A DNA stretch of 23,211 bases, taken from a virus. The notes under the pieces are model-generated. The model did no database searches. It saw only the letters and a list, made by a program, of their open reading frames with translations, and was not told the DNA's origin. Numbering within the stretch: the stretch's first letter is position 1; each line of letters opens with the position of its first letter. This document shows positions 1-17,280 of the stretch, in pieces. The stretch lies in the IMG/VR virus record IMGVR_UViG_3300025532_000017, positions 1 through 23,211 of that record; one strand, 5' to 3'. Both the position numbers and the translations under genes were made by a program.

Positions 1-110
1 GGAGCGTTCTGCCATTGCGTGGTGCGTGGAGATGGCCGAGACGACCGCCACAGAATGCGACGAAGAGTTGGCGGCTTTGCGGGGATTGCTGGCACGGTTT
101 GAGTGTGAAC
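1..110 (+). repeat. 110-bp perfect direct repeat, copy 1 (truncated by the window edge)
   Basis: All 110 bases match 1538-1647 without a mismatch (offset 1537). The match stops directly after GAAC at 107-110: the next bases are ACGCAGGATC here and GCCAAAGATG in the other copy. The left end is cut by the window, so the repeat may be longer. The right end coincides with the first box of the hairpin repeats. Confidence 0.97.
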
Positions 111-142
111 ACGCAGGATCAGGAGCATCGCATGACAGATGA
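2..142 (+). CDS. 3' end of a small cassette protein (partial copy of the gene at 1380-1658)
   Basis: The frame is open from the window edge and stops with TGA at 140-142. Its visible part, starting ERSAIAWCVEMAETTATECD, is identical over 36 residues to the C-terminal half of the 92-aa protein at 1380-1658. Identity ends at the GAAC box (107-110); after it the reading frame runs about 10 codons into the hairpin repeat and ends, so the two copies differ only in their last residues. The true start lies outside the window. The TGA overlaps the next start (132) by 11 bases. Function is unknown: it is a short, acidic, helix-forming segment with no recognised motif. The exact duplication suggests two cassettes carrying the same gene. 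Confidence 0.75.
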   Translation, partial: ERSAIAWCVEMAETTATECDEELAALRGLLARFECEHAGSGASHDR

Positions 143-192
143 AACTACACCGCAGGACGGCAAGGCGATGTCTCCTGCATCCGCTGGTTCTC
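107..192 (+). repeat. attC-like hairpin repeat R1 (86 bp)
   Basis: The copy runs from GAAC (107-110) to GTTC (187-190) plus TC. Seen pairings: GAAC with GTTC; unpaired spacers 111-115 and 183-186; GGAT 116-119 with ATCC 179-182; unpaired C178; CAGGAG 120-125 with CTCCTG 172-177; unpaired T171; CATCGC 126-131 with GCGATG 165-170; apical loop 132-164. The start codon of the next gene (132) is the first base triplet of the loop, and its Shine-Dalgarno AGGAG (121-125) lies in the second stem. The order of paired box, unpaired spacer, stem, extrahelical base, stem, extrahelical base, variable end is that of integron attC sites. The boxes keep the AAC/GTT triplets but do not fit RYYYAAC/GTTRRRY fully. 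Confidence 0.8.
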
Positions 193-341
193 AAGGCTAC
201 GATCCGCCGTGCCTCTCCGAGCACCTACAGACTTGCAAGGTGTGCGAGCCTGAATCGGAGAAAAGGCTGGGATACCCGTCTCTTGCGTCGTACTGCCCAG
301 AGGCGCTAGACATTCTGATTGAGGAGTTGAGCAATGAGTGA
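132..341 (+). CDS. Small cassette protein of unknown function, four Cys (69 aa)
   Basis: ATG at 132 follows AGGAG (121-125) at six bases. The protein has a Thr/Ser/Pro-rich N-terminus encoded inside hairpin repeat R1, then a segment with Cys residues (PPCLSEHLQTCKVCEPESEK, then SYCPEAL) that includes one CxxC. The spacing could hold a metal ion or disulfides, but no family is recognised. The C-terminus is acidic and helical (ALDILIEELSNE). The stop overlaps the next start (334) by eight bases, so both are probably translated together and belong to one cassette (about 110-594). The start codon sits at the foot of the apical loop of R1, so RNA folding could limit translation. Confidence 0.75.
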   Translation: MTDETTPQDGKAMSPASAGSQGYDPPCLSEHLQTCKVCEPESEKRLGYPSLASYCPEALDILIEELSNE

Positions 342-591
342 TACCCATGAGCCGCTGGCGTGGGTGGCGCTCGCCGCAGACGCAAGCGAGTCGCGGGCGC
401 TGTTCCTGACGCGCGATGCTGCGGAGCGAGCAGCCAGAAAACACGGCTGGTTCGTTGCAGAGTTGTTTGCAAGGCCCACGCTCACCGACGAGGAGCGCAA
501 GGTATTGATCCGCGTCGCGGACGACGCCGCCTACCGGGCGATGGGCTTTACGGAGCGCGTGGTGCTAGGATTGCTTGAACGGACGAAGTGA
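334..591 (+). CDS. Small cassette protein with LTDEER motif, unknown function (85 aa)
   Basis: ATG at 334 follows GAGGAG (319-324) and overlaps the previous gene by eight bases. The N-terminal half (PLAWVALAADASESRALFLT, then AAERAARKHGW) looks like the small phage proteins that describe a residue-rich beta strand followed by a helix; no Pfam family is claimed. The C-terminal part begins PTLTDEERKVLIRVADDAAY and resembles the corresponding ATLTDAERSAIAWCVEMAE segment of the gene at 1380, so the two cassette proteins share a short LTD-x-ER helical module. The stop (589-591) lies immediately before GAAC of hairpin repeat R2. Confidence 0.75.
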   Translation: MSDTHEPLAWVALAADASESRALFLTRDAAERAARKHGWFVAELFARPTLTDEERKVLIRVADDAAYRAMGFTERVVLGLLERTK

Positions 592-677
592 GAACACCAG
601 AGATGAATGGCTGCGAACACAGGAGCATGACACCATGAGCGACAACGCCGAGCAGTCCATTCCATCGCGTGGTTCTG
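592..677 (+). repeat. attC-like hairpin repeat R2 (86 bp)
   Basis: It runs from GAAC 592-595 to GTTC 672-675 plus TG. Pairings: (A)GAAC with GTTC(T); unpaired spacers 596-601 and 667-671; GATG 602-605 with CATC 663-666; unpaired C662; AATGG 606-610 with CCATT 657-661; unpaired T656; CTGC 611-614 with GCAG 652-655; loop 615-651. The loop contains AGGAG (621-625) and the start codon (635) of the following gene. Bases 590-676 are about 91 percent identical to 1335-1421, the closest pair in the array. Confidence 0.82.
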
Positions 678-943
678 TGGCGAACCATTCGGCTTTTCCG
701 AATAGTTGGATTCCGGTGACGGAGCGACTTCCGAAGGAATACGAGACAGTGCTTGTGGCAACCGACGGAGCGGTGTCGGCCGGGGAGATTCGGTTCCCAT
801 TCGAATCCGAAGGGCCGGAAGAGCCTTGGTGGATGGTGTTCAAGGACAGACGAGACACGTCGCCGTCATGGGCTGGGATGGTGTCTCTAAACGATGTCAC
901 GCACTGGATGCCGCTCCCGGCCCCGCCAACGGACTGCAAGTAG
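635..943 (+). CDS. DUF551-like protein (102 aa)
   Basis: ATG at 635 follows AGGAG (621-625). The first 14 residues (MSDNAEQSIPSRGS) are encoded by hairpin repeat R2 and recur almost unchanged in the gene at 1380. From about residue 25 the protein reads WIPVTERLPKEYETVLVATD, then a region ending THWMPLPAPP. The W-IPV-x-ERLP opening and the HWMPLP-x-PP ending are the hallmarks of the DUF551 family (PF04448), common in phages and prophages of Proteobacteria. The biochemical role of that family is not known. It forms a one-gene cassette between R2 and R3. The N-terminal extension relative to the DUF551 core seems to be contributed by the repeat. Confidence 0.85.
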   Translation: MSDNAEQSIPSRGSVANHSAFPNSWIPVTERLPKEYETVLVATDGAVSAGEIRFPFESEGPEEPWWMVFKDRRDTSPSWAGMVSLNDVTHWMPLPAPPTDCK

Positions 944-948
944 CCACA

Positions 949-1000
949 GAACACGCAGGATAAGCGGCGGCTCCGCCGTCCGCTTCATCCGCTGGTTCTC
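949..1000 (+). repeat. attC-like hairpin repeat R3 (52 bp, short loop)
   Basis: It runs from GAAC 949-952 to GTTC 995-998 plus TC. Pairings: (A)GAAC with GTTC(T); unpaired spacers 953-957 and 991-994; GGAT 958-961 with ATCC 987-990; unpaired C986; AAGCGG 962-967 with CCGCTT 980-985; unpaired T979; CGGC 968-971 with GCCG 975-978; loop TCC 972-974. It lacks the 34-nt loop of the other copies and carries no start codon; the next gene starts 35 bases downstream. This short form shows that the stem design, not the start codon, defines the repeat. Confidence 0.85.
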
Positions 1001-1034
1001 TTGCGGCACAATACCAAGCAAAGGAGACAACCAG

Positions 1035-1328
1035 ATGAGCCAGAGGCTTCATGTCGGAGCCACCGACGATCCCGTATATGACGCCGTCATCGCCAGCGAA
1101 GCCGATGCGACCGAAGATCGGATGGCCGATTGGCTTCAGGCAGGCCCGTGGAAAATCCGCATCGGCGACATCGACTTGTGGGACAAGGTCAAGTCAGCGA
1201 TTGCCGAACTATTTCCGGGCCTGTTCCCAAACGACGTATGGGCGTTTTACATGGGCGAGCGGAACATCCAGCACCCGACGGCGGATGAACTCCGCGAGTG
1301 GTTGGACGCTGGGCGAGGGCATGCGTAG
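1035..1328 (+). CDS. Cassette protein of unknown function (97 aa)
   Basis: ATG at 1035 follows AAAGGAG (1019-1025) at nine bases. Unlike its neighbours, it starts outside the hairpin repeat. The protein is acidic and aromatic, with segments such as RMADWLQAGPWKIRIGDIDL and LFPGLFPNDVWAFYMGERN. It looks like one small alpha/beta domain; I recognise no family and see no membrane segment or signal peptide. The stop (1326-1328) precedes GAAC of R4 by eight bases. It is the only gene of the R3-R4 cassette. Confidence 0.75.
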   Translation: MSQRLHVGATDDPVYDAVIASEADATEDRMADWLQAGPWKIRIGDIDLWDKVKSAIAELFPGLFPNDVWAFYMGERNIQHPTADELREWLDAGRGHA

Positions 1329-1336
1329 GGTCGAGA

Positions 1337-1422
1337 GAACGCCAAAGATGAATGGCTGCGAGCAAAGGAGCATGACACCATGACAGACGAAGCCGAGCAG
1401 TCCATTCCATCGCGTGGTTCTC
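1337..1422 (+). repeat. attC-like hairpin repeat R4 (86 bp)
   Basis: It runs from GAAC 1337-1340 to GTTC 1417-1420 plus TC. Pairings: GAGAAC with GTTCTC; unpaired spacers 1341-1346 and 1412-1416; GATG 1347-1350 with CATC 1408-1411; unpaired C1407; AATGG 1351-1355 with CCATT 1402-1406; unpaired T1401; CTGC 1356-1359 with GCAG 1397-1400; loop 1360-1396. AAGGAG (1365-1370) and the start codon at 1380 lie in the loop. Confidence 0.82.
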
Positions 1423-1658
1423 GCGGGGGCATACTGGAGGAGGCCCGCGAGTGGCTGGCACGGTCGCGCGCTGCGAAGCCTCTGCCATCGGAAAGGATCA
1501 TTGCGGGCGTGCTGGTTCACGCCACTCTCACCGACGCGGAGCGTTCTGCCATTGCGTGGTGCGTGGAGATGGCCGAGACGACCGCCACAGAATGCGACGA
1601 AGAGTTGGCGGCTTTGCGGGGATTGCTGGCACGGTTTGAGTGTGAACGCCAAAGATGA
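1380..1658 (+). CDS. Small cassette protein, complete copy of the gene cut by the left edge (92 aa)
   Basis: ATG at 1380 lies in the apical loop of R4, nine bases after AAGGAG. The first 14 residues (MTDEAEQSIPSRGS) come from the repeat and match the DUF551-like protein at 635. The body is mostly helical: GGILEEAREWLARSRAAKPL, then an LTDAER module like that at 334, then CVEMAETTATECDEELAALR. No family is recognised. The last 36 codons before the GAAC box are identical at the DNA level to 2-109. The stop TGA (1656-1658) falls inside R5. Confidence 0.78.
   Translation: MTDEAEQSIPSRGSRGGILEEAREWLARSRAAKPLPSERIIAGVLVHATLTDAERSAIAWCVEMAETTATECDEELAALRGLLARFECERQR
1538..1647 (+). repeat. 110-bp perfect direct repeat, copy 2
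   Basis: It is identical to bases 1-110. It covers the 3' part of the 92-aa gene and stops at GAAC (1644-1647), the first box of R5. No drift is seen even at third codon positions, so the duplication is recent or maintained by recombination. Confidence 0.97.
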
Positions 1659-1729
1659 GCAGCCCGCAGCCACAGGGAGATTCCATCATGAAAGACGTTG
1701 ACGCGGGTCTGCTCCATCGTGTGGTTCTC
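1644..1729 (+). repeat. attC-like hairpin repeat R5 (86 bp), last of the array
   Basis: It runs from GAAC 1644-1647 to GTTC 1724-1727 plus TC. Pairings: GAAC with GTTC; unpaired spacers 1648-1653 and 1719-1723; GATG 1654-1657 with CATC 1715-1718; unpaired C1714; AGCAG 1658-1662 with CTGCT 1709-1713; unpaired T1708; CCCGC 1663-1667 with GCGGG 1703-1707; loop 1668-1702. The loop contains AGGGAG (1674-1679) and the start codon at 1688. Stems two and three differ from the other copies on both arms, giving compensatory support for the fold. Confidence 0.82.
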
Positions 1730-2028: not shown

Positions 2029-2227
2029 TCCGAGAACCAATGTTTATGCGGTTCCCGATAGCAGCCCTTCGTGCTGCATAGTACGCCGCCGATTCGCGCC
2101 GCACGGCCGCTAAACGCTGAACGCCGCCGCTATCACGTTCCGCATAACACGCCGCCAGTGATCGCTTGACACGCTTGGCATCCTGCGTGAGTCCCGGCAG
2201 ATACCGGGAGTTCACGGAGGATGATTC
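2029..2227 (+). other. 199-bp non-coding, probably structured region
   Basis: No convincing frame is present. The sequence can fold: TTATGCGG (2044-2051) pairs with CCGCATAA (2140-2147), enclosing GATAGC (2057-2062) with GCTATC (2129-2134) and an inner hairpin GCAGC/GCTGC (2061-2065, 2073-2077). The octamer ACGCCGCC occurs three times (about 2083, 2121 and 2149). A second hairpin, TCCCGG/CCGGGA (2192-2197, 2204-2209), stands just before the ribosome-binding site of the next gene. GAGAACCA at 2032-2039 is the reverse complement of the box ending repeats R1-R5, but no matching partner arm is found. TTGACA at 2166 has no good -10 partner. It could be a small RNA, leader or origin; none is proven. 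Confidence 0.4.
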
Positions 2228-6113: not shown

Positions 6114-7028
6114 ATGAAGGGATTCGTTCCACTCTTCGGCTATCAGCCCAACCGTGCCGGCACCGATGCGTTTCTGTCCACGCTCGACAAGCCAACGCTG
6201 GCACTTGCAGGGCCTGATCTCGCCCTGGACGAGTCCAAGGACGTTTTTCTTGGCAACGCCCTGCTGCAGGTGAATCCCGGCTGGAAGCGTGGGGCTCAAA
6301 CGATAGGCAGCTGCGTCGGCTGGGGCTGGAGCCTGTCGGTAGACGTGCTCGCCGCCTGCGACGTGGTTCTGAGGAACGAGCCCGAGGCGTACGGCGGTGA
6401 CACGTTGTGCGCGAGCGTCTACGGGTTCAGCCGCGTTGAAGTGCGTGGCCAAAAGAACTATGGCGGCGACGGTTCCTACGGCGGTGCTGCGGCCAAGGCC
6501 GTGAGCCAATACGGCACGCTGCACCTTAGCCAGGCGTACGGCACAAAGACGTACACAGAGCAAAGCGGCACGCTTGAAAAGTCGTGGGGCCGAGATGGCG
6601 TGCCCGACAACCTCGAGCCGTTTGCCAAGCAGCACAAGGTGGCCAACGTCACGCTGGTGCGGACGTTTGAAGAAGCCGCCACGGCCATTCAAAACGGTTA
6701 CCCGGTTGCTGTGTGCAGCGGCCAAGGGTTCAGCATGACGCTCAAGGATGGCTACCTCACGCCGTCTGGCTCGTGGGCTCACTGCATGATGTTTCTCGGC
6801 GTCCGCTGGAAGCCCTACCCGGCCTTGTACTGCGAAAATAGCTGGGGCAACTGCTACACGGGTACGCCAGACAAGAATGTGCCGAAGCCGTTTCAGCTAA
6901 GCGGCGGGTGGGTGAAGGCCGCCACATGCACCAGCATGCTTTCCGGCGAAGACTCTTTTGCCCTCGCGGGCTTTGAAGGCTTCAAGCCGCGTGAACTTCC
7001 AAGTGATTGGCTTAAGGGGATTCTCTGA
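6114..7028 (+). CDS. Papain-like (C1-type) cysteine peptidase (304 aa)
   Basis: The three catalytic blocks of papain-fold peptidases are present in order. Gln62 and Cys67 lie in AQTIGSCVGWGWS (compare the QGSCGSCWAFS block of papain). His223 lies in SGSWAHCMMFLG. Asn242 lies in YCENSWGNCY (compare the NSWG block). GGDGSYGGAAAKAVSQYG resembles the Gly-rich segment between them. It lacks a signal peptide and an obvious propeptide: about 60 residues precede the active Cys. It could cleave a phage protein, a host protein or act in lysis after release by a holin. The next gene starts on its stop codon (TGATG) and encodes a lipoprotein. Confidence 0.85.
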   Translation: MKGFVPLFGYQPNRAGTDAFLSTLDKPTLALAGPDLALDESKDVFLGNALLQVNPGWKRGAQTIGSCVGWGWSLSVDVLAACDVVLRNEPEAYGGDTLCASVYGFSRVEVRGQKNYGGDGSYGGAAAKAVSQYGTLHLSQAYGTKTYTEQSGTLEKSWGRDGVPDNLEPFAKQHKVANVTLVRTFEEAATAIQNGYPVAVCSGQGFSMTLKDGYLTPSGSWAHCMMFLGVRWKPYPALYCENSWGNCYTGTPDKNVPKPFQLSGGWVKAATCTSMLSGEDSFALAGFEGFKPRELPSDWLKGIL

Positions 7029-7294
7029 TGCGTTTTCTTGTCTGCCTGCTCGTCGTGTCCGGTTGCGTCATGGCGTCCATGCCACCGGATGACGGCTTGA
7101 CTGCTGATCTAGCTTGCGAGACGGCCCGCATGGTGACGCAGCTGCGGCAGGAGATTGCCCCGACGCCCGTGACAGACGAGTGCGAGAACTGCCACGGCAA
7201 GGGCACTCTCGGTGACGGGAAGATCAGCACAACTTGTCCGGTTTGCGGCGGCACCGGAAAGAAGCCAAAGAGCGTCTGCACGAACTGCAAATGA
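7028..7294 (+). CDS. Putative lipoprotein with DnaJ-type zinc motifs (88 aa)
   Basis: ATG at 7028 uses the last base of the peptidase stop. The N-terminus (MRFLVCLLVVSGC) ends in a plausible lipobox, VSGC, with Cys13 as the lipidated residue. The C-terminal half has three CxxC pairs: Cys52/55, Cys70/73 and Cys84/87. The first two have the CxxCxGxG form (CENCHGKG, CPVCGGTG) of the DnaJ zinc finger. A zinc-binding domain exported on a lipoprotein is unusual. It may act as an envelope-side adaptor. The stop overlaps the next start by four bases (ATGA). Confidence 0.72.
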   Translation: MRFLVCLLVVSGCVMASMPPDDGLTADLACETARMVTQLRQEIAPTPVTDECENCHGKGTLGDGKISTTCPVCGGTGKKPKSVCTNCK

Positions 7295-16518: not shown

Positions 16519-17280
16519 GTGAAGTTTCGCGTTGGCAACATCGAGCACGATCTGCGAGTTGAAGCGGCGTTCTCTGTACCCCGCTTAGGCTTTCAAGACA
16601 ACTTCTTCTGCACGATGCAGTCGCTGCTTCCGCTGAACATTCGCCCTACGAAGTTCACGGGTGCCTTTTGGGAACAGTGCCTAGATCGCGTCCTGCTGGA
16701 CATGATTGAACGCACCGACTGGGTTCTGGTGGTGGACTTCGACAGCGTGTACGAGGCCGACACCATCCAGCGGCTGATGACGGCGGCCCTGATCAGCGGG
16801 TATGACGCCGTGGCCCCGCTGCAGACTAAGAGAGACGAGGGCGTGCCTATGTTCACGCCCGAGGGCCACGACGGCACCATTGGAACCGTGCAACTGCCAA
16901 ACGCATGGTTTGAGGCGGTGATTCAGCCCGTTGAAACTGCCCACTTTGGCTGCACGCTCATTCGCTCGTCAGCACTCAAGCGGACGGCAACGCCTTGGTT
17001 TCTCGGCACGCCCCGGCCGGATGGGCACTGGGGTGACGCCCCTGCCGGCGAAGTGACGCGGACAGATCCGGATATTCACTTCTGGCGGCAGTTCAAGGCC
17101 GCCGGCAACACGCTTGGCATCGCCCCGCAGGTGGCGATTGGCCACGCGGAACTCAAGTTCACTTGGCCGGGAAGAGACCTCAAACCCGTCTACCAATCGC
17201 CTAGCGACTACTGGAACAAGGGTGGCCGCAGGCCGCCCGAGGCGTGGGGAAGCATCGAGCACGGAGAAATGAACGCATGA
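16519..17280 (+). CDS. Glycosyltransferase-like (GT-A) protein inside the head module (253 aa)
   Basis: GTG at 16519 follows AAGGAG (16508-16513). DWVLVVDFDSVYEADTIQRL carries a D-F-D triplet (residues 73-75) after a beta strand, the DxD signature of GT-A enzymes. The C-terminal half (VETAHFGCTLIRSSALKR, DPDIHFWRQFKAAGNTLGIA, VAIGHAELKF) resembles the acceptor-side part and a late His used for metal binding in such folds. A phage glycosyltransferase encoded between head and connector genes is a good candidate for glycosylating virion proteins. Two other glycosyltransferase-like genes lie at 2923 and 3689. It overlaps the next gene by four bases. Confidence 0.78.
   Translation: MKFRVGNIEHDLRVEAAFSVPRLGFQDNFFCTMQSLLPLNIRPTKFTGAFWEQCLDRVLLDMIERTDWVLVVDFDSVYEADTIQRLMTAALISGYDAVAPLQTKRDEGVPMFTPEGHDGTIGTVQLPNAWFEAVIQPVETAHFGCTLIRSSALKRTATPWFLGTPRPDGHWGDAPAGEVTRTDPDIHFWRQFKAAGNTLGIAPQVAIGHAELKFTWPGRDLKPVYQSPSDYWNKGGRRPPEAWGSIEHGEMNA

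Follow-up and report, generated by a model that had tools for sequence, protein, structure and literature searches.

A probable integron cassette array without an integrase in a phage genome, with attC-type sites that encode the starts of cassette proteins

An Integron-Type Array in a Phage Record

The window analyzed here is the complete IMG/VR record IMGVR_UViG_3300025532_000017 (23,211 bp), which carries genes for TerL, portal, protease, capsid and tape measure, in agreement with an earlier note on this DNA that had called it a phage genome. Integrons are the classical gene-capture platform of bacteria. Our data indicate that the beginning of this phage record is very probably an integron cassette array without an integrase, recombined in trans, most likely by the chromosomal integron integrase (IntI) of a Planctomycetota host. 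Sequence comparison supports this conclusion on six counts: the anatomy of the attC-type sites, their kinship with host integrons, the shuffling of cassettes, the complementarity of cassette ends, an attI-like array end and the coding content of the sites. Here phages appear to run an integron without an integrase of their own, and infection could therefore use the capture system of the host.

The array contains five attC-type sites, all on the + strand, which is the folded strand. Site 1 lies at 107–190 (R′ GTGTGAAC, R″ GTTCTCAA; 82 bits), site 2 at 592–675 (R′ GTGAGAAC, R″ GTTCTGTGGC; 81.5 bits), site 4 at 1337–1420 (84.8 bits) and site 5 at 1644–1727 (R″ GTTCTCG; 73.7 bits). Site 3 at 949–998 is a short-loop form of 50 nt, found by the covariance model outside its training set (51.7 bits, E 1.8e-13). 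From the outside inward, all five show GAAC/GTTC, an unpaired spacer of 6/5 nt, a GAT/ATC stem, an unpaired C, a 6-bp stem, an unpaired T and a stem of 4–6 bp. The earlier observation of five hairpins sharing this order, with one unpaired T and one unpaired C, is therefore confirmed at the places where they had been reported, except that the hairpins proper end two bases sooner. Single-sequence folding of sites 1–5 was only partly better than that of shuffled sequences (z = -3.7, -1.7, -5.1, -2.1 and -0.8); it is weak when taken alone and we did not rely on it. The evidence from the site family, in contrast, exceeds chance by a wide margin.

The array closes at 2031–2061 (+) with an R′ CGAGAAC followed by the attI-like sequence CAATGTTTATGCGGTTCCCGATAG (junction CGAGAAC/CAATGTTTATGCGGTTCCCGATAG), and this R′ pairs over 7 bp with the R″ of site 5. 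At the other extremity, positions 1–106 (+) are the tail of a cassette cut by the contig start and ending in GTGTGAAC. This cassette end is present twice, as a direct repeat of 126 nt (1–126 and 1538–1663, 95% identical) of which both copies reach GTGTGAAC and then continue into different attC sites: 1–110 and 1538–1647 form a common gene end as far as GAAC, and the sites beyond are unlike. The array end, the pairing of R arms across each cassette and the gene starts within the hairpins had been overlooked in the earlier note.

Site Family and Covariation

A first pattern scan detected the site family in 20 viral contigs and a broader one in at least 119 viral-contig stretches; 25 stretches, mostly from Planctomycetota, were found in metagenome-assembled genomes (MAGs). 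In total, the script counted 312 occurrences (273 distinct) at 147 loci, each of which has all its elements on a single strand. The unpaired central spacer (UCS) measures 6/5 nt in 271 of the 273 distinct elements. When the scan pattern made no demand on pairing, 179 out of 193 distinct hits had an L stem paired 6/6; with swapped 5′ halves as a control, the number was 45. The two extrahelical bases, 6 nt apart, are both on the R″-L″ arm. After dropping one search-trigger element per locus, the unpaired T was retained in 140/156 elements and the unpaired C in 152/156, which bears out the conserved T that had been proposed.

The stems differ between copies and stay paired, as had been noted for the five hairpins: among 50 diverse phage sites, changes on both sides were observed at 12 of 19 pairs, with a covariation score of 0.310 (0.082 after shuffling and at most 0.084 after sliding). 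These 50 rows were picked by a script requiring pairing, which biases the percentage of paired positions and has far less effect on the double changes. The phage sites thus have the imperfect palindrome of attC, with paired R and L stems, an unpaired central spacer and a variable terminal structure (VTS), and they carry extrahelical bases on one arm, including the conserved T, at the 6–8 nt distance of attC sites. A search with the covariance model, as the earlier note had advised, returned many further copies with the unpaired T and C, including arrays beside intI.

Cassette Shuffling and Complementary Ends

The repeats bound gene gain, loss and reshuffling in relatives, an outcome on which the earlier integron interpretation had been made to depend. 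For example, seven viral contigs share one cassette (94–100% identical) next to unlike upstream neighbors, and divergence starts at the base preceding AAC. Contigs L092 and L103 have two cassettes in common, of 348 and 709 nt and 100% identical, but one contig has them in the reverse order of the other. In the 38 pairs compared, the upstream side shows an identity of about 0.3, and from AAC onward the value is 1.0, which by comparison places the crossover in the AAC of R′, as in attC. Also, an identical three-cassette array (100%) is common to contigs L009 (146 kb), L016 (205 kb) and L021 (48 kb), each of which comes from a different metagenome.

The bases outward of AAC/GTT at the two ends of one cassette match in 91, 91, 85, 70 and 63% of cases (shuffle level 74, 60, 43, 26 and 34%). 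For the two arms of one hairpin as they stand in the array, the values are 81, 76, 45, 32 and 36%, much closer to their shuffle level of 78, 63, 42, 27 and 33%, and no base other than the second goes beyond the highest shuffle. R arms match across the cassette far better than within the hairpin, so only excision as a circle would give a full R stem; despite this pairing, the sequence of the stem is almost unconstrained. In the window, cassettes 1, 2, 3 and 5 match at their ends over 7, 10, 7 and 7 bases. Gene and attC together would therefore make up a unit that could be circularized, with complementary core sites in the circle.

Kinship With Planctomycetota Integrons

Of the 16 MAGs bearing such elements, 10 encode an integron integrase of full length that scores above the TIGR02249 cut-off (397–465 bits), and none of 14 controls does. 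In several MAGs, sites and intI are on the same contig (L178, L179, L180, L181). The covariance model built from phage copies alone found regular arrays beside intI (E to 1e-20). Contig L180, for example, has more than 12 sites on one strand, beginning about 400 bp from intI, and the model found arrays of this kind in L178, L179, L181, L182 and L186. The folded strand points toward intI in all six contigs where the geometry was read, which is the geometry of the attC bottom strand. Thus, the phage sites belong to the same attC family as those of the Planctomycetota chromosomal integrons (MAG contigs L178–L189), with the same unpaired T and C, and phage and host arrays have the same folded-strand polarity toward intI or attI. 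Model hits were present in at least 17 of 149 genomes drawn from Planctomycetota, a group in which intI had already been reported (PMC2426708).

The attI-like end has its counterpart in these chromosomes. An R′ partner follows the last site in 63 of 110 phage arrays (0 in the control). Roughly half of the distinct ends have CAGTGnTTMTRCGG...ATAA after this partner. A matrix made from 33 phage ends had its best score 142–269 bp from intI in 6 of 12 host contigs; the scores there were 11.4–32.3, and only 2 of 305,536 shuffled positions exceeded 8. A second type of phage end resembles a host site of L186. Therefore, given the R′ partner and the matrix match near intI, the phage end has the position and the sequence of an attI, and this putative attI would adjoin the first cassette.

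Host and phage arrays differ in their content. The host integrons have intI, of which none was found in the phage arrays. In L178, the host genes are on the strand opposite to the fold, which is the classical orientation, and, unlike the phage cassettes, they encode toxin-like proteins and proteins of unassigned function (ParE-like, PemK, DUF2442, DUF4345 and DUF6883 over cut-off). ORF (open reading frame) length alone gives a mostly ambiguous picture for the host arrays, with 11 on the opposite strand, 4 on the folded strand and 14 undecided. We also observed that one MAG contig has a second array on its other strand (G025:C6:397471-400590), beside a partial intI (401832–402359).

Reversed, Leader-Encoding Cassettes

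In classical cassettes, attC lies at the 3′ end of a gene that reads away from attI; the phage genes are not arranged in this way. With a 1.3x margin, 72 viral cassettes have their longer ORF on the folded strand and 11 on the opposite one, and substitutions read on the folded strand favor third positions (457/265/196). This strand encodes DUF551 (10/103), C5- and N4/N6-methyltransferases and Dam. The integron-type array proposed earlier thus stands, with its direction corrected: the + strand is the attC bottom strand, and the genes run opposite to the classical sense and start inside the site.

Of 258 long sites, 170 contain a Shine-Dalgarno sequence with a start codon; on the complementary strand the count was 19. 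Frames that begin with ATG, cross R″ and stay open for 75 nt or more beyond it were present, in the GGT-TCN frame, in 161 of 208 viral sites and in only 2 of 43 MAG sites; a second frame gave 53 viral sites, a partly overlapping set. The leader encoded by attC has 14–20 aa and is in frame with the cassette protein; unrelated proteins begin with such fused leaders, for example MTDENEQSIPSRGS, MSDETTPQDGKAMSPASAGS and MSDTNERSVASAGS.

The cassettes of the window, all read on the + strand, follow this pattern. In cassette 1, an ORF without family match (132–341) starts inside site 1 with the attC-encoded leader MTDETTPQDGKAMSPASAGS, and a second ORF with its own start (334–591) encodes a small phage protein of the PLAW...PTLTDEER type. 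The ORF of cassette 2 (635–943) has the attC leader MSDNAEQSIPSRGS followed by DUF551 (PF04448, 46.2 bits, cut-off 22), and that of cassette 4 (1380–1658) the leader MTDEAEQSIPSRGS, also encoded by attC. The short attC of cassette 3 encodes no start, and its ORF (1035–1328, no family match) has a ribosome-binding site (RBS) and start of its own. Cassette 5 holds an ORF at 1655–1861, with the alternative-frame leader MKDVDAGLLHRVVL and then a hydrophobic stretch, whose start is likely ATG 1688 after GGGAG inside site 5, and a second ORF (1861–2028) that stops just short of the attI-like end.

Proposed Mechanism and Alternative Explanations

Each cassette combines an attC-type site with small phage genes, either one or two. 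We hypothesize that the + strand of this site, when single-stranded in vivo, would fold as an attC bottom-strand hairpin, in which host IntI would cut within the AAC of the 5′ arm and free a circle whose own two ends form a fully paired R stem. The circle could then be inserted again, either into a different attC or into the attI-like end at 2031–2061. In contrast to classical cassettes, the phage gene lies on the folded strand and reads in the direction of attI, and the Shine-Dalgarno sequence, the ATG and the first 14–20 codons are contained in most sites. A captured cassette would therefore bring its own translation start, and a phage transcript that begins outside and runs across the array could serve for its expression. 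Such exchange could shuffle small phage genes between phages, DNA methyltransferases included, and may give an advantage in interactions with hosts or rivals.

Several observations weigh against this interpretation. The extrahelical base nearest R is C (152/156) and not G; it is G in sites of the IntI1/VCR type, VCR being the Vibrio cholerae repeat, where it directs strand choice. Most of the intI-adjacent host sites listed likewise have C nearest R, so this looks like a trait of the lineage. Only AAC/GTT is kept in the R boxes (for example TGAGAAC/GTTCTCA, ACAGAAC/GTTCTGT and GCATAAC/GTTATGC), and the flanks do not follow RYYYAAC/GTTRRRY. This divergence, remarked upon in the earlier note, is real, and host sites such as GCCGAAC likewise deviate from RYYYAAC. 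Cassette 4 of the window has an end match of only 4 bases. Also, the terminase comparison does not single out Planctomycetota, and the host assignment therefore rests on the attC- and attI-type sites. Finally, 25 pairs with the same gene body and different attC show a second breakpoint at R″, where identity steps up between TG and GTT. This counts against the proposal since classical bottom-strand recombination alone does not predict such a breakpoint, which may come from top-strand recombination or may come from homologous exchange. In VCR, loss of the extrahelical bases moves the top-strand point to R″ (PMC2727003). In 24 of these 25 pairs the leader is in frame in both members, as where MNDTDERSCASRGS and MTDENEQSIPSRGS precede an identical HGEPCAWAVVLAD.

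As for the recombining enzyme, from these data we infer host IntI. Neither a tyrosine recombinase nor IntI was found in the window record, as the earlier note had stated, and no IntI exceeded the cut-off in 50 viral records, the contigs being fragments. The array thus lacks the intI gene of a complete integron and corresponds to a phage CALIN (cluster of attC sites lacking an integron integrase), that is, two or more attC sites with no nearby intI, with an attI-like site in addition. A tyrosine recombinase encoded by the phages themselves might move the cassettes instead, and it tells against host IntI that PF00589 matches occur in 7 of 21 viral records, over cut-off in 5. By coordinates, these recombinases lie kilobases away from the arrays; none is present in the window or in most records, although in fragmentary contigs absence is not proof. 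In addition, both the attC-type sites and the array ends have their match next to host intI. We rejected the PF00589 proteins as the likely enzyme, since they are patchy and distant and have no IntI match over cut-off, and we regard a phage recombinase as improbable.

The hairpins could also be dispersed intergenic repeats, acting as translation-start or RNA elements and shuffled by homologous recombination alone. Such elements would account for the RBS, ATG and leader, and the 3′ arms are alike enough for homologous exchange, which could yield the R″ breakpoints. However, exchange edges lie at AAC with no homology upstream, complementarity links the ends of one cassette rather than the arms of one hairpin, the unpaired T and C are fixed on one arm, and the kinship with attI and intI-adjacent arrays would be left aside; this explanation is already largely refuted, and we give it very little chance. 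Hardly any credence remains for an inactive relic of a chromosomal integron from the host, acquired by transduction without adaptation to the phage. Such an origin would fit a site family shared with host integrons and the failure to find intI, but the phage cassettes are reversed and leader-encoding by the counts given above, they contain phage-type genes (DUF551, methyltransferases), many contigs carry them (17 of 49 with a portal gene), and 100% identical cassettes in new contexts point to recent shuffling.

The earlier integron interpretation is thus supported. Going further, we lean, with some reserve, toward the view that Planctomycetota phages have domesticated an integron. They would have kept attI and attC, dispensed with the integrase, borrowed host IntI and reversed the genes, and the hairpin would serve at once as recombination site, RBS, start and fixed-frame leader. 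Exchange at R′ would then move genes, and exchange at R″ would swap leaders in frame.

Neighboring Genes

Scans of the window with Rfam gave no match and a tRNA scan found none; a DNA search with positions 1–2100 against the 50,697 phage records of INPHARED left the array without any match. A RusA-like Holliday junction resolvase is encoded downstream of the array (2528–2926), and an ORF cluster homologous to it lies near arrays in 30 loci. A junction-resolving role is possible. We did not adopt it as the array recombinase, since such resolvases are frequent in phages generally; the gene-neighborhood search for a recombinase was blurred by shadow ORFs. A family 2 glycosyltransferase (PF00535, 2923–3696) adjoins the array, and by eye a second glycosyltransferase-like ORF was noticed within the structural module (16519–17280). 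Also by eye, we recognized papain-like Cys/His/Asn motifs (GSCVGWG, SWAHCMMF, ENSWG) in a 304-aa ORF at 6114–7028, which had no match in Pfam or PHROG, and a DnaJ-like CxxCxGxG zinc motif in a small ORF at 7028–7294.

Comparison With Known Systems

Phage integron clusters are known: attC clusters without intI have been reported in phage genomes, and in assays of six phage attC sites, five were recombined by IntI1 (Qi et al., 2023; PMC9892861). Like the present arrays, those phage CALINs lack intI, and their cassettes included DNA methyltransferases. Their R boxes are of the GTTRRRY type, unlike those of the present family, and neither leader-encoding reversed cassettes nor a conserved attI-like array end figures in the parts of that account available to us. 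In the literature searched, whose coverage is incomplete, phage arrays are not described as having an attI-like end of their own, reversed genes or fused leaders encoded by attC. To that extent, the leader-encoding, attI-bearing, integrase-free form is new.

The sites have the R/UCS/L/VTS order of class 1 and VCR attC as described by Bouvier et al. (2009; PMC2727003), and share with them the extrahelical bases on the R″-L″ arm, with T 6–8 nt from the other, and the recombination point in the AAC of R′. They differ from these sites in that R is free beyond AAC/GTT, C replaces G and the UCS is fixed at 6/5. Two rules held to be general, the fixed R-box sequence and the orientation of the genes, are broken here, and the pairing of the R arms in the circle is kept. 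The nearest parallel for the leaders is ORF-11 of attI1, together with short ORFs in attC (PMC8876359), where a recombination site likewise gives translation initiation. In the case of ORF-11, the peptide terminates and re-initiation follows. Unlike ORF-11, the phage leader forms an in-frame fusion with the cassette protein and moves when the cassette moves, so that here the recombination site is itself coding sequence.

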